Below, in pieces: positions 5,148 through 61,407 of a DNA stretch of 64,000 nucleotides (positions are counted from its first letter, which is position 1; every line of letters starts with the position of its first letter). Below the pieces are notes generated by a model. That model saw only the letters and a list, made by a program, of their open reading frames with translations, did no database searches and was not told the origin of the DNA. Source of the stretch: Agathobaculum butyriciproducens (lineage in GTDB: Bacteria > Bacillota > Clostridia > Oscillospirales > Butyricicoccaceae); contig QEKJ01000001.1 in assembly GCA_003096535.1 (NCBI GenBank), positions 186,001-250,000 on the forward strand. The letters run 5' to 3'. A program made the position numbers and the translations under genes.

Positions 5148-5166
5148 GCAAGAATCGTTACTTTTA

Positions 5167-5326
5167 GGCAATACCGCATAATGAAGCAAGAGCGATTTGC
5201 GAGTAAATTTTGTGCTCTGATAAGGCGTGGTTTTGCGTCAATACTTGCTGTATTGCAAAAAATCACAACGAAATCAGGGGGCAAAATTTCCGCAAAGCGC
5301 CGCAGTCTTAATTGTGCGGTGTTGCC
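5167..5326 (+). repeat. Repeat P copy 1 (160 bp, MITE-like)
   Basis: A palindromic element with terminal inverted repeats GGCAATACCGCATAAT at the left and ATTGTGCGGTGTTGCC at the right, and subterminal GAGCGATTTGCGAGTAAATTTT matched by AAAATTTCCGCAAAGCGCCGC. The internal ~70 bases also fold back. The same sequence recurs at 34947 and 35441 (160 bp) and in shorter form at 5608 and 61281. It has no coding capacity. It sits in the speD promoter region. Confidence 0.8.
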
Positions 5327-5404
5327 TTTGTACTCTTATTGATCGTTTCACAAGTGTGATGCGCCCGCGGCACACGGCTTTTAGTCAGCCAACTTATAAA
5401 ATTC

Positions 5405-5528
5405 AATAAGGCAACAAAGTTGCCAGTTTCGGCATTTGACCCGGCTGTCCGTATGGCCTTAGCACCGTTTTCGCGCAGAAACCGGGCGGTCAAAGAAATT
5501 CTGCTGAAAGGCTTCGCCTCTCCGAGTA
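5405..5528 (-). ncRNA. Candidate small structured RNA with strong sigma-A promoter
   Basis: A near-consensus promoter lies on the minus strand: TTGCAT (5558-5563), 17 bases, TATAAT (5535-5540). The predicted ~120-base transcript contains GAGAGGC-GAA-GCCTTTC, a helix closing TTTGACC..GGTCAAA around CCCGG/CCGGG, a GCC/GGC hairpin, and ends in GGCAAC-TTT-GTTGCC (5410-5424) followed by a T-rich stretch. No reading frame follows it before speD, 400 bases downstream and beyond P copy 1. It does not match a riboswitch, 6S or other RNA family I can recognise, so identity is open. Confidence 0.45.
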
Positions 5529-5607: not shown

Positions 5608-5694
5608 GGCAGCATCATATAATTAGACAAGCGCGATTTACGAGCAAATTTTATGCACTGATAGCGCCACAGTCCTGATTGTATGATGTTGCCC
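5608..5694 (+). repeat. Repeat P copy 2 (87 bp, diverged)
   Basis: A shorter, more diverged P element with terminal repeats GGCAGCATCATATAATTAG and CTGATTGTATGATGTTGCC, keeping the GCGATTTACGAGCAAATTTT subterminal block. It lies between the candidate small RNA and the amidase gene. Confidence 0.65.
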
Positions 5695-7747: not shown

Positions 7748-7961
7748 CGTAGGGTGCGACGACCTCGGCGCACCGTTGTAAACCATCTGCACACGCATAA
7801 CCGTAGGGGCGCACAGTGTGCGCCCGCAGCGCGACCGGAGCCTGCGCAAGGAACGGCCAAGAACCGTTTGATTTTACGTTGCGTGGGAGCACACTGTGCT
7901 CCCCTACGAGATAACGTGTACCAATCGTTAGATACGGTGCGCCGAGTCGTCGCACCCTACG
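7748..7961. repeat. REP-like composite palindrome, nested inverted repeats
   Basis: The outer arms CGTAGGGTGCGACGACC and its inverse GTCGTCGCACCCTACG enclose inner arms CGTAGGGGCGCACAGTG and CACTGTGCTCCCCTACG. The whole 214-base gap between the convergent aroF and pdaA-like genes is one symmetric element. Related arms occur at 13185, 14409, 14905, 29368 and 34202. Confidence 0.8.
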
Positions 7962-13184: not shown

Positions 13185-13266
13185 CGTAGGGCGCGACGAC
13201 TCGGCGCGCCGTATTTGCCGCCTGCATATACTTACGAGCGGCGCGCCGGGGTCGTCGCGCCCTACG
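13185..13266. repeat. REP-like palindrome between pheS and pheT
   Basis: Arms CGTAGGGCGCGACGACTCGG and its inverse around a ~30-base spacer, inside the pheST transcription unit. A smaller GGCGGGATGA/TCATCCCGCC hairpin follows at about 13300-13325. Confidence 0.85.
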
Positions 13267-13337
13267 ATAATACGTATCGCTTGTAACATGCGGGAGAGTG
13301 CGGCGGGATGAGGTCATCCCGCCCTACGGGTGCAGGT

Positions 13338-14408: not shown

Positions 14409-14490
14409 CGTAGGGCGTGACGACCTCGGCACGCCGTCTGAAATCATCAGCTGCCGTTCGATGCGGCGCGCCGAGTCGTCGCGCCCTACG
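14409..14490. repeat. REP-like palindrome between the T-box terminator and pheS
   Basis: Arms CGTAGGGCGTGACGACCTCG and CGAGTCGTCGCGCCCTACG. It lies within the leader RNA downstream of the T-box decision hairpin and ahead of the pheS ribosome site. Confidence 0.8.
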
Positions 14491-14904: not shown

Positions 14905-14988
14905 CGTAGGGGCGGACCAGTGTGTCCGCTCTGATTAAGCGATATGCAGATGGTTTACAAGCGGTGCGCCGAGTCGGCGCACCCTACG
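14905..14988. repeat. REP-like composite palindrome upstream of the T-box
   Basis: Left arm CGTAGGGGCGGACCAGTG with its own GGACCAGTGTGTCC hairpin; right arm GCGCCGAGTCGGCGCACCC ending in CTACG. The stretch 14989-15190 holds AT-rich sequence with a possible minus-strand TATAAT at about 15036-15043 and a short fragment (about 15008-15030) resembling the end of an R arm; no gene is seen. Confidence 0.65.
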
Positions 14989-28967: not shown

Positions 28968-29340
28968 TAGTGCGGCGGGCCAAAAGGATAGACACCAAGG
29001 TTTGCCCGTAGGCCACTAAACCTTGTTCCCGCGCCGTGCGCGGATTAAATGAGTACTATCCTCTTGGGACTCCATCTTCCTTTATTAGATAGTCTGGCGC
29101 AGACCAGAGACCAGCGACCGCTCCGAAAAGGAGAACGGCAGAGGATTTTTTCTTCCGTAGAGGCGCACAGTGTGCGCCCATGTCTTAACCTATCCGCAGT
29201 GTCGAATAATTTACTGCTACACATATCGGCTGCTCTACGCAGGCGCGGCACAAGGTGAATTGCCCAAAGGGCAAGAGAGGGTCCTCTGGAGGATGACCGT
29301 GCCGCGCAACTCTTTTACGCGTTATTACAGACAGTTCCTC
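28968..29340 (+). repeat. Repeat R copy B (single arm)
   Basis: A single arm of the R family occupying most of the gap between spoIIE and the ABC genes. It carries the conserved GAACGGCAGAGGATTTTTTC block, AAGGTGAATTGCCCAAAGGG and AGAGAGGGTCCTCTGGAGGA. The first hairpin is interrupted by ~50 extra bases (about 29000-29050) relative to other copies. No gene is seen between 28761 and 29545. Confidence 0.8.
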
Positions 29341-29367
29341 CGAATTTCATTTATCAACCAACCTTAC

Positions 29368-29445
29368 CGTAGGGTGCGACGACCTCGGCGCACCGTAGCA
29401 AACGATTTGCACACATTTAATCGTAGGGGCGGTCATTGACCGCCC
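29368..29445. repeat. REP-like arms downstream of R copy B
   Basis: CGTAGGGTGCGACGACCTCG followed by CGTAGGGGCGGTCATTGACC with its own hairpin, the left half of the composite seen whole at 7748. It is followed by AT-rich TTCTCCATT repeats to 29500. Confidence 0.7.
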
Positions 29446-33794: not shown

Positions 33795-34180
33795 GGGAGT
33801 GGTCGCTTACGAAGCGAGAGGAATCTCACCCGCCCAGCGGGGGCGCCGTACCCACGGCGGGGGGCAAGAGGGTAGACACCAATGGTTTCTACCCTCTTAA
33901 CTCCCACTTCCTTTTGTTTCTTAACCTGACGCATACCAGAGACCGGCGACCGCTTCGAAAAAGGGAACGGCAGTCGGATTACTCTGCCGTAGGGGCGCAC
34001 AGCGTGCGCCCATTTCTCGACATATTCGCAGTTCACAGATAACGTACTACTACACATGCGGCCTGCTCTCCGCAGGCGCAACACAAGGTGAATTGCCCAA
34101 AGGGCAAGAGAGGGTCCCCTGGGGGATACCTGTGTCGCGCAACTCATTGGTCTGGTGGCTACAGACGGCACCTGCGAGTT
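33795..34180 (+). repeat. Repeat R copy C (single arm)
   Basis: R-family arm with GGGTAGACACCAATGG hairpin, GACCGCTTCGAAAAAGGGAA, GTAGGGGCGCACAGCGTGCG and AAGGTGAATTGCCCAAAGGG. It begins with part of the S/flank module (GGCGGGGGGC). Followed by a REP-like arm at 34202-34232 and two further hairpins (34260-34300, 34318-34370). No gene is seen between 33708 and 34380. Confidence 0.8.
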
Positions 34181-34380
34181 TAATTTGATAATGAATGTTT
34201 ACCGTAGGGTGCGCCGACCTCGGCGCACCGTGCTATCCGGCTGGCACTCAATAAAAATGAAAAAATGGAGAATGCCCTACCTCGGGGTTCATTCTCCATT
34301 CCGACTCGCTAAGAGCCGCCCTATGGGCGGTTGCTCGCTGGACGCCCACTGCGGTGGGTGTCTCCATTTTCAATTTTCCA

Positions 34381-34946: not shown

Positions 34947-35107
34947 GGTAATACCACATAATTGAACAAGAGCGATTTACGAGTAAATTTTGCGGTCTGA
35001 CTAGGCGTGATTTTGCGGTAATACTTTGTGTATTACCGTGAAAGCACAACGACGTCAGAGCACAAAATTTCCGTAAAGCGCCGCAGTTTAATTGTGCGGT
35101 GTTATCC
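34947..35107 (+). repeat. Repeat P copy 3 (161 bp), right next to the atl gene
   Basis: Ends GGTAATACCACATAATTGAA and TTTAATTGTGCGGTGTTATC; subterminal AAGAGCGATTTACGAGTAAA matches its inverse before GCGCCGC. Its right end supplies the stop codon of the alkyltransferase-like gene. Confidence 0.85.
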
Positions 35108-35440: not shown

Positions 35441-35602
35441 AGTCAATACCACATAATGAAACAAGAGTGATTTGCGAGTAAATTTTCTTTTTTTGACGAG
35501 GCATGGTTTTGCAGCAATACTTTCGGATTGCAAGAAAACACACCGAAGTCAAGAAAGTAAATTTTCGCAAAGCACCGCCGCTTTAATTATGCGGTACTGG
35601 CT
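35441..35602 (+). repeat. Repeat P copy 4 (162 bp)
   Basis: Ends AGTCAATACCACATAATGAA and AATTATGCGGTACTGGCT; shares AAGAGTGATTTGCGAGTAAA with the other copies. It is in the same orientation as copy 3, so the two flank the atl gene as direct repeats of a palindromic element. Confidence 0.85.
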
Positions 35603-35680
35603 TTATTATATCAAGTCAGATTGCCAATATCCATAGGTTTTTCGGCCTAAAAAACTGTATAATTTTATCGTGCTAAAGTA

Positions 35681-39538: not shown

Positions 39539-39639
39539 ACCTTTTTCAAAGGTAAAATGAGAGTTTACGTTGTAAATTCTATTCAGCACCATCTATACGC
39601 TAACAAGTACAATCTTGTCATAAACAACGGTGCCGAGCA

Positions 39640-39950
39640 CAGCAACCAACCAAATCATTGGGCGGCACTGCCATCCTCCAGAGGACCCTCTCTTGCCCTT
39701 TGGGCAATTCACCTTGTGCCGCCCTCTGCGTTGACTTTCTGTCCTGTGTAGCAGCAAGGAATCTGACACTGCGTACAGGCAGAGACATAGGCGCACACTG
39801 TGCGCCCCTACGGTAGAAAAAATCCTCTGCCGTTCCCTTATAGTCTCAGTTCTCTGATTGCCGCCGTGCCCTCTAATGGAAAAGGGGTGAAAATCAGAGG
39901 GTGGAAACCTTGGTGTCTACCCTCTTGTGCGCCTGCCGCGTAGGCAAGAA
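39640..39950 (-). repeat. Repeat R copy D (single arm, minus orientation)
   Basis: R-family arm read on the minus strand, with AGAGGGTCCTCTGGAGGATG, AAGGTGAATTGCCCAAAGGG, GTAGGGGCGCACAGTGTGCG and the GGGTAGACACCAAGG hairpin. It fills the gap between prfC and recR together with the orphan terminator; no gene is seen from 39349 to 40003. Confidence 0.8.
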
Positions 39951-50804: not shown

Positions 50805-51165
50805 CCTTTGGCGGGGAGGTTCGCCGCATCCGCGGCGGGGGCAAGAGGGTAGACACCTACGGTTTCTACCCTCTTAACTCCCGTTTCCCTTTATTTGTTC
50901 GTCTGGCGCAAACCAGAGACCGGTGACCGCTCCGAAATTTTGGAACGGTAGAGGATTTTTTCTTCCGTAGGAGCGGCCAGTGGCCGCCCATTTCTCTACC
51001 GCTTCGCAGTGCCAGATTCCTTGCTGCTACACATGCGGTTTAGTCTCCGCAGGCGCAACACAAGGTGAATTGTCCGAAGGGGCAAGAGAGGGTCCCCTGG
51101 GGGATAACAATGTTGTGCAACTCGTTTGCGCGTTGTTATGCACGGCACCTGCGAATATTTCTTTG
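50805..51165 (+). repeat. Repeat R copy E (single arm)
   Basis: R-family arm with CGCGGCGGGGGCAAGAGGG, GGGTAGACACCTACGG hairpin, ACGGTAGAGGATTTTTTC and AGAGAGGGTCCCCTGGGGGA. It fills the gap between the convergent Lrp and rsmA genes; nothing else is seen between 50743 and 51210. Confidence 0.8.
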
Positions 51166-54915: not shown

Positions 54916-55034
54916 GGAAAACCTCTTCCAAAAACTGTTGACAAGTATGGTAATTTATGGTATATTTATCATGGCGGTTGGGAAAGCCGCCATGCACCGT
55001 TCATATCTTTATCCCCACAATCCTACTTTTGGCG

Positions 55035-56100
55035 CTCTTTCGCAAGGAAGAGCGCGCTTTTTTTGCGCAAAAGCAGGAGCTGCGCTTCTTTTTCAGCACA
55101 AAGCATGCTGGGCACGCGAGTTGCGCAGCAATACGCCCTGTCCGGGCAGCACCTTTTCCTGCACCGATTGTCTGGTGCACACGAACCGCGCAGGCGATTC
55201 GCCCCTAACGAACGGTGGGTTTTTCACTGAACCTCAGCTGGGAGTTGCGCTCTGCGGAGCGCGGGGATTCGCCGCGCCCCGCGGCGGGGGATTTGCGCTG
55301 ACGCCGCGCGGGCGCACAAGAGGGTAGACACCTGCGGTTTCCACCCTCTTGTGAATCACCCCTTTCCCTTGGAGGGTCTGACGCAGATTACCGACATGTG
55401 ACCGCTGCGAAAAGGGGAACGGCAGAGGATTTTTTCTTCCGTGTCTTTCGCAACCTGTTCGCAATGCCGGATACTGTTCTGCTACACAGGCGATTTACTC
55501 TGCGCAGAGCGCGGCATAACAGTGCCGCGCAAATCGTAAGCGCGTTATGATAGATAGCACCTACGAAGATAAATTGTACCAAACGCCTAATTCGCAGGTG
55601 CCATGCGGTATAACGCGTTAAAGAGTTGCGCGACACTGTTATGTCGCGCCTGCTTAGATGAACCCACCTGTGTAGCAGTACGCTGTCTGTGAACTGCGTA
55701 AAGGCGGAGAAAGTCACGCTGCAGTAACCCGACTGCCGTTCCCTATTTTCGAAGCGGTCACATATAGGAAATCTGCGCCGGATTAGGAAGCAAGGGAAAG
55801 GTAGGAGTTCAAAGAGGAAGGAAAACCGCAGGTTGTCCTTCCTTTTTGCCCACCGCCGTGGGTACGGCGTCGCCCCCGCGGCGGGCGCCGCGACGCTCCC
55901 GCCGTCCGCAGACGGCGAATCCCCCGCTGAGGTTCAGCGAAAACCTTCCCGCCCGGAAAGGGCGAACCCGCCTGCGGCAGTTCGCGCACCCCGCTGGGTC
56001 GGTGCAGAAAAGGAGCCGCCCCGTCAGGGCGAACACGCTTACGCAGTTCGTATGCACCGCTCACCCGGTGCCGAAAAGCTCTGCCGACGCTTCGTGCACC
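55035..56100. repeat. Repeat R copy F: ~1.06 kb palindrome with S modules on both sides
   Basis: The most complete R copy. Inverted S modules (about 55035-55310, with CTGAACCTCAGC and GGGCAGCACC blocks) are followed by a left arm (55310-55590), an AT-rich centre near 55575 and an inverted right arm (55590-55860). Direct S modules follow (55915-56090, with GGGCGAACCCGCCTGCGGCA). The terminal hairpins GGGTAGACACCTGCGG and AACCGCAGGTTGTCC close each arm. The 54916-56142 gap holds no recognisable gene. Confidence 0.82.
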
Positions 56101-56113
56101 GGCATATAAAAGC

Positions 56114-56139
56114 AAAACCGAGGTTTCCCTCGGTTTTCT
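56114..56139 (-). terminator. Terminator after the S1-domain gene
   Basis: AAAACCGAGGGAAACCTCGG hairpin with TTTT on the minus strand, adjacent to the stop codon. Confidence 0.85.
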
Positions 56140-61237: not shown

Positions 61238-61280
61238 AGCTTGTCGCTCCTTCCGACGGAATGTCTCCGTTTCCGGTCTC

Positions 61281-61365
61281 ATGGTAATATTGCGTAATGG
61301 AACAAGGGCGATTTGCGGGAAAATTTCCGCAAAACGCCGCAGTTTCAATTATGTGGTATTGCCAT
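61281..61365 (+). repeat. Repeat P copy 5 (85 bp, near-perfect hairpin)
   Basis: Short P form: ATGGTAATATTGCGTAATGG and CAATTATGTGGTATTGCCAT as ends, with GGCGATTTGCGGGAAA and TTTCCGCAAAACGCC as inner arms. It lacks the ~75-base middle of the long copies. Confidence 0.8.
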
Positions 61366-61407
61366 TATACTTCATACCCTGCCAAAAAGCAAGAATACGG
61401 ACATTTT

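Follow-up and report, generated by a model that had tools for sequence, protein, structure and literature searches.

What is the palindrome of about 1 kb that occupies 55.07–56.11 kb of the window (the whole stretch of DNA that was analysed, 64,000 nucleotides), between a gene coding for an S1-domain protein (PF00575) and an amidohydrolase gene? The original prediction left the choice between a non-autonomous mobile element and a structured RNA. We favour the mobile reading over the structured RNA: with a probability of roughly 0.58, the palindrome belongs to a large family of composite repeats that are non-autonomous, comparable to an oversized BIME or MITE, and moved in trans.

The palindrome itself is genuine. 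Window positions 55134–56031 match their reverse complement with 69.6% identity along an alignment of 919 columns (E 5e-74), and the self-inverted score of 276 bits compares with a maximum of 37.4 bits in 100 dinucleotide shuffles and of 68.9 bits in 100 other window stretches of 1086 nt. Two arms of about 275 nt each (~55304–55572 and 55590–55862) face each other across a 23-nt AT-rich centre, and the multi-copy zone, 55084–56086, includes repeated modules that extend beyond both arms. From the centre outwards, the parts are an inner end, a core with a covarying helix (helix F), a purine tract carried by the outward strand and an end hairpin, beyond which come a variable row of small GC-rich hairpins and then, in many copies, S modules at a spacing of about 67 nt. 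The inverted S modules that had been predicted to flank the arms do lie outside both of them, those on the right in tandem at 67 nt. The features are as follows, with the strand where one is assigned.

55067–56113: whole inserted composite element, between the + strand terminator at 55032–55066 and the S1-gene terminator at 56114–56137; missing in 19 relatives; exact ends uncertain because of the variable stretch that the relatives have there
55084–55223: left S-type modules, hairpin units repeated in tandem and inverted with respect to those on the right; multi-copy zone from 55084, inverted match from 55134, hairpin at 55182–55201
55224–55314: left row of small GC-rich hairpins (e.g. 55247–55262, 55272–55284, 55295–55315); the same modules lie outside other copies
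55315–55353, - strand (outward strand, as used in model R3): end hairpin on the left, type 2; R2/R3 match G000:C1:241298-241372; covariation
55354–55368: pyrimidine tract in the left end hairpin (purine on the outward strand); tract also present in the 47 aligned end regions
55376–55531, + strand: core of the left arm (model R1), including helix F (55509–55530); R1 match G000:C1:241376-241531; helix F covariation
55568–55590: AT-rich centre between the inner arm ends at 55558–55567 and 55591–55600; arm-model gap of 14–17 nt in 31 of the 40 pair rows
55627–55783, - strand: core of the right arm (model R1), including helix F (55628–55649); R1 match G000:C1:241627-241783
55792–55809: purine tract in the right end hairpin
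55810–55848, + strand: right end hairpin, type 1; R2 match G000:C1:241790-241866
55849–55940: right row of small GC-rich hairpins (e.g. 55853–55867, 55901–55916, 55925–55939)
55941–56086: right S modules, in tandem with 67-nt spacing; direct repeat 55949–55976/56016–56043; end of the multi-copy zone at 56086

Besides this element, the window contains a second palindromic copy and four single arms, in agreement with the prediction that the arm also occurs alone:

1035–1587: second palindromic copy
28974–29348, + strand: single-arm copy
33851–34183, + strand: single-arm copy
39629–39935, - strand: single-arm copy
50830–51158, + strand: single-arm copy

One detail of the prediction was misplaced: the block AAGGTGAATTGCCCAAAGGG is absent from the palindrome at 55 kb, even when 3 mismatches are allowed. 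It is found exactly at 29252, 34085 and 39696 and with 2 mismatches at 51062, always inside the single arms of the window, and belongs to an optional extension of helix F that a motif search recovered in 20 of 117 arm hits. Note that some arms also carry a GTAG-type palindrome, for instance near 34.0 kb.

In the host genome as a whole, the covariance model of the arm core (R1, built from 34 insert-free arms) has 112 matches among the candidates scored (up to 121 per genome, counts at this cap being lower bounds), as against 0 in 24 other genomes of the genus among the candidates scored in the same way. An nhmmer arm model, run on the window and on fetched host loci, returned 77 rows with 117 arm hits; after exclusion of row L212 (two weak hits of 43–52 nt) and with pair rows having shortened arms kept (L121, L128, L129, L196 and L201), the host copies sort into 39 inverted pairs and 37 single arms, i.e. 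about 76 intergenic places. Six truncated arms were left out of one analysis step. The gap between the two arm models is 14–17 nt in 31 of the 40 pair rows. With copies that can be aligned along hundreds of bases and that make up a large family, both a random GC-rich similarity and a decayed gene are set aside. In alignments of at least 400 nt, the best pair of host copies is 86.6% identical and the median is 72.5%; no near-identical full-length pair was found in the host genome and, judged by sequence, the copies are old relative to each other.

At least two S motifs are present on 31 of 111 outer sides versus 0 of 36 inner sides, so that S motifs occur only outside the end hairpin. We rejected the idea that S modules are a terminator-side part, given their presence on 12 of 50 outer sides facing a gene 3' end and on 19 of 61 facing a gene 5' end. 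As to the outer hairpins of 37 pairs, 26 pairs combine type 1 with type 2, 10 have two hairpins of type 2 and one has two of type 1; within these 37 pairs, unlike hairpins were combined more often than equal ones. Inspection by eye revealed no apparent target duplication at the junctions, the outer ends being uncertain because of the variable module strings.

Comparison with relatives bears directly on the origin of the palindrome. The order S1 gene, then amidohydrolase gene, holds in 24 of the 25 relatives searched, and the stretch between the two genes measures 203–285 nt in 17 relatives versus 1227 nt in the host. An element of about 1 kb is missing from all 19 relatives in which this gap was inspected (17 records named Agathobaculum and two named Eubacteriales bacterium), and a search of the 32 loci L021–L052 with the end-hairpin model R2 yielded nothing at E <= 0.01. 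In the host, the insert is flanked by the terminator of the S1 gene and by that of a short, conserved unit located on the opposite strand, both terminators facing the element. By comparison with these relatives, the palindrome represents about 1 kb of inserted sequence, with a terminator on either side. For the copy at 50830–51158, the empty-site comparison met with one flank that is not syntenic in the relatives.

The short unit mentioned above (54938–55066, + strand) is worth describing for itself. It comprises a promoter-like TTGACA-17-TATATT (11 of 12 positions), a hairpin, a conserved stretch and a terminator, is divergent from the amidohydrolase gene and has a best Rfam match that stays below threshold at a relaxed setting. 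Its conserved stretch is near-identical across the 19 inspected relatives, and the unit looks like a candidate genus-wide small RNA of about 100 nt. Another region, 5429–5492 on the - strand, matches SpF59 (RF02440), a Streptococcus sRNA, with 62.9 bits for a gathering score of 37.2.

The main rival to the mobile reading holds that the arms are structured host RNA, co-transcribed with their neighbours, in which they would stabilise transcripts between cistrons or at the 3' end, provide processing sites or have a regulatory role, and that their spread is secondary. The location of the palindrome between two facing terminators, together with a scan that found no promoter-like site inside it, does not fit this explanation. 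Of the pairs, 25 have tandem, 10 divergent and 5 convergent gene neighbours, i.e. no orientation preference; for single arms the numbers are 21, 3 and 8 plus 5 undecided, for a window background of 23, 4 and 4, all gene orientations being derived from codon-score ORF picking and not from curated annotation. Among the 21 single arms between tandem genes, 14 have their outward strand in the direction of the upstream gene, which leans slightly towards RNA. Also favourable to a host RNA is the gap between pflB- and pflA-like genes (pyruvate formate lyase-like and radical SAM genes, likely an operon), where the host carries an element (L128, 2024–2447) and where eight relatives carry one too, in varying forms and in both orientations. 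These relatives, in which both flanks were matched in seven cases and one flank in L011, were sampled via their best match to the query and form a biased sample. Such repeated occupation could reflect a host function. Five further sites share a common neighbour with a host element, a raw count from a comparison of 49 loci, 47 of them from relatives and some sites present twice, with the fetched host loci.

Is the folded structure maintained? The end hairpin is 39 nt long, with a stem top of the form AACC-NNN-GGT. In an alignment of 47 end regions (7 host sequences and 40 from relatives of the family), 92.9% of the cells are paired, both partners are changed in 14 of the 17 pairs, a number attained by 2 of 500 shuffles (shuffled mean 10.0), and 115 cells have changes on both sides versus a shuffled mean of 32.1. 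The covariation score is 0.455 versus 0.202 after shuffling and at most 0.150 with the partner slid. Because the structure was drawn from the very sequences tested, and kinship alone can beat shuffles, most weight falls on the slid control and on how many pairs are changed. The covariance modelling that had been proposed thus yields strong covariation for the end hairpin and covariation for helix F as well, and the end-hairpin structure is, by these measures, under selection. Folding is also stable relative to shuffles, with z -15.4 for the palindrome and z -5.6 and -3.4 for single arms.

The long duplex that the two arms could form together was rejected as the selected structure: two arms that share an element resemble each other no better than arms from separate elements (0.685 vs 0.702 for the core overall, 0.700 vs 0.704 across outer types and 0.691 vs 0.688 across centre types). 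It therefore looks as if local hairpins are kept within each arm and the long duplex is not maintained. A bias of genome assembly against perfect palindromes could also contribute.

Helix F speaks to another explanation, in which the hairpin rows would act at the DNA level, as putative sites for nucleoid proteins or gyrase or as transcription insulators, the single-strand form being irrelevant. One of its pairs, tallied over the 110 arms scoring at least 100 bits, is G-C in 57 arms, A-T in 44, G-T in 1 and A-C in 1, i.e. it keeps Watson-Crick pairs with few wobble intermediates, and the copies are intergenic, as such an architecture would have it. The end hairpin, however, is strand-asymmetric in the host: its outward strand displays 77 G-T versus 13 A-C cells in 100 of 110 arms (10 being unscorable), which favours a single-stranded outward form and makes a purely DNA-level role improbable.

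This asymmetry also suits the host RNA, the end hairpin of which would covary as observed. The excess is, however, much reduced elsewhere, with 32 G-T versus 21 A-C across species for the end hairpin and an even 13 versus 14 for helix F, and much of the host figure is inherited from a few changes. G-T pairs are also tolerated in single-stranded DNA. The selected structure may thus act as RNA or as single-stranded DNA, and a host RNA with secondary spread seems to us rather doubtful.

The end hairpin is far more widespread than the core. With model R3, it was found in 25 of 25 genomes of the genus, with 1 to 128 matches each among the candidates scored (up to 150 per genome), some of them one hairpin counted on both strands, the genus members whose sequences are included in the model matching by construction. 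Such a range would be odd for an element needed for DNA architecture. Across the order, 24 of the 147 genomes sampled have R3 matches among the candidates listed (up to 33 per genome), some of which are one hairpin counted on both strands; apart from the clear cases named next, many are isolated hits close to the threshold that could reflect chance. The clearest cases outside the genus are G052, of the same family, with at least 33 matches, and three genomes from one genus of another family, G024, G106 and G166, with 32, 28 and 29 matches (partly both-strand doubles; best E ~1e-6). Inverted pairs of end hairpins measure 365–540 nt end to end in seven other genomes of the genus Agathobaculum (G004, G030, G007, G009, G011, G012 and G013) and 750–857 nt in G052, and the interiors of all these pairs differ from the host core. 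Two end hairpins, each with an inward pyrimidine tract, long module strings and a non-palindromic core make up the G106 elements; these copies are more alike, the best listed pairs being 82–94% identical. Several G052 contigs stop no more than about 50 nt from an end-hairpin match, and short-read assemblies tend to break in this way at near-identical repeats.

Which enzyme could be the mover? The host assembly (57 contigs, 99.7% complete) contains 0 matches to Y1 transposases/RAYT (PF01797), 0 to reverse transcriptases (PF00078) and none to TnpB, and none of these three enzymes is present in all five element-bearing genomes tested; we therefore set them aside as movers. Rfam has no family at gathering score in the element, where a relaxed threshold gives only sub-threshold matches, and no match over the elements in L105, L131 and L132, so that a known RNA family was rejected, a result that also counts against the host RNA. 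The idea that the end hairpin resembles 16S rRNA at its 3' end was dropped, there being no rRNA family among the Rfam matches, and a search for a plasmid or phage origin gave no match. These results likewise bear on the idea that the family is the relic of a known class of transposon or intron (IS200/IS605, group II intron or RNA-guided system) that has lost its protein gene. End hairpins in inverted pairs and a high copy number are usual for such derivatives (for REP, see PMC3733652), and the sub-threshold Rfam matches in the 55-kb region, the absence of any over L105, L131 and L132 and the enzyme searches leave this origin quite unlikely.

Returning to the mobile reading, the repeat unit would be the arm: a core with structure of its own, then a purine tract together with the long end hairpin, and on the outside a row of smaller hairpins. 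Such units occur singly or head to head. They would be mobilised in trans by an enzyme reading the folded end hairpin of one strand, either as single-stranded DNA or as an RNA copy, and amplification would have proceeded lineage by lineage, with a separate core in each but an end that remained readable. Since no two full-length host copies are near identical, this enzyme may have been lost in the host.

Altogether, the arguments for mobility are (i) the copy number, the insertion relative to the 19 relatives, the mixed gene orientations and the outer-only S motifs; (ii) the covariation of the end hairpin and its genus-wide presence with differing interiors; (iii) the similar copies of G106 and the contig ends of G052. 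Against it stand the lack of a recent host copy, of a target duplication visible by eye and of Y1, TnpB and RT, the occupied pflB–pflA gap and the outward single arms. The original prediction is partly supported: the dispersal of about 76 copies, the insertion and the lack of Rfam, plasmid or phage matches fit it. Movement as such we only infer, as no transposase of the types searched, no target duplication visible by eye and no near-identical copy was found in the host. We also raise, tentatively, the possibility of an unrecognised class of hairpin-ended mobile elements of Oscillospirales, with a readable end and a freely replaced core, that would propagate through a single strand by means of an enzyme other than those tested. 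The literature covered, mostly outside subscription journals and in part, describes no such repeats for Agathobaculum, Butyricicoccus or Faecalibacterium, a silence that hints weakly at novelty.

Two other repeats of the window deserve mention. GTAG-type palindromes CGTAGGGNGCGNCGACC have 10 matches with at most 2 mismatches versus 0.15 expected, several in inverted pairs (sites at 7748–7961, 13185–13328, 14409–14490, 14972–14988, 29368–29384 and 34203–34219), and are present despite the lack of a Y1 transposase match in the host. A second repeat of about 160 nt lies at 5166–5334, 34947–35103 and 35441–35604 (75–82% identical), and also at 5616–5663 and 61279–61371; its ends, GCAATACCGCA and TGCGGTGTTGCC, appear inverted by eye, making it a MITE candidate.

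How does the family compare with known systems? TnpB/IscB guide RNAs and group II introns are large covarying structures on repeated elements. The host element shares this property but differs from them by its two opposed copies per element and by the lack of Rfam, TnpB or RT matches; a group II intron derivative would be expected with a reverse transcriptase in the genome or an Rfam intron match, neither of which the host offers. It resembles MITEs in being non-coding, with inverted conserved ends, a variable interior and many copies, but its ends are covarying hairpins instead of inverted repeats of fixed sequence, and no autonomous partner was found among the enzymes searched (Y1, TnpB and RT).

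There is also a likeness to REP/BIME in organisation: the host repeat is dispersed, intergenic, palindromic and multi-copy, forms inverted pairs (39 in the host, with others in relatives) and mosaics, and is presumed mobile in trans. REP units, as described in PMC3733652, are 20–40 bp palindromes with a GTAG or CGTC tag at one end. The host unit, in contrast, consists of an arm of about 275 nt plus modules, with an end hairpin that alone reaches 39 nt, shows by eye no GTAG or CGTC at a fixed place beside the hairpin in the 47 aligned end regions, and has no Y1/RAYT match in its genome. The practical side is already apparent in G052, with its contigs that end close to end hairpins. The host repeats are thus far larger and more elaborately folded than the REP units in print, and the combination of one end hairpin with a different core in each lineage turns the comparison into a testable question: what reads the hairpin?
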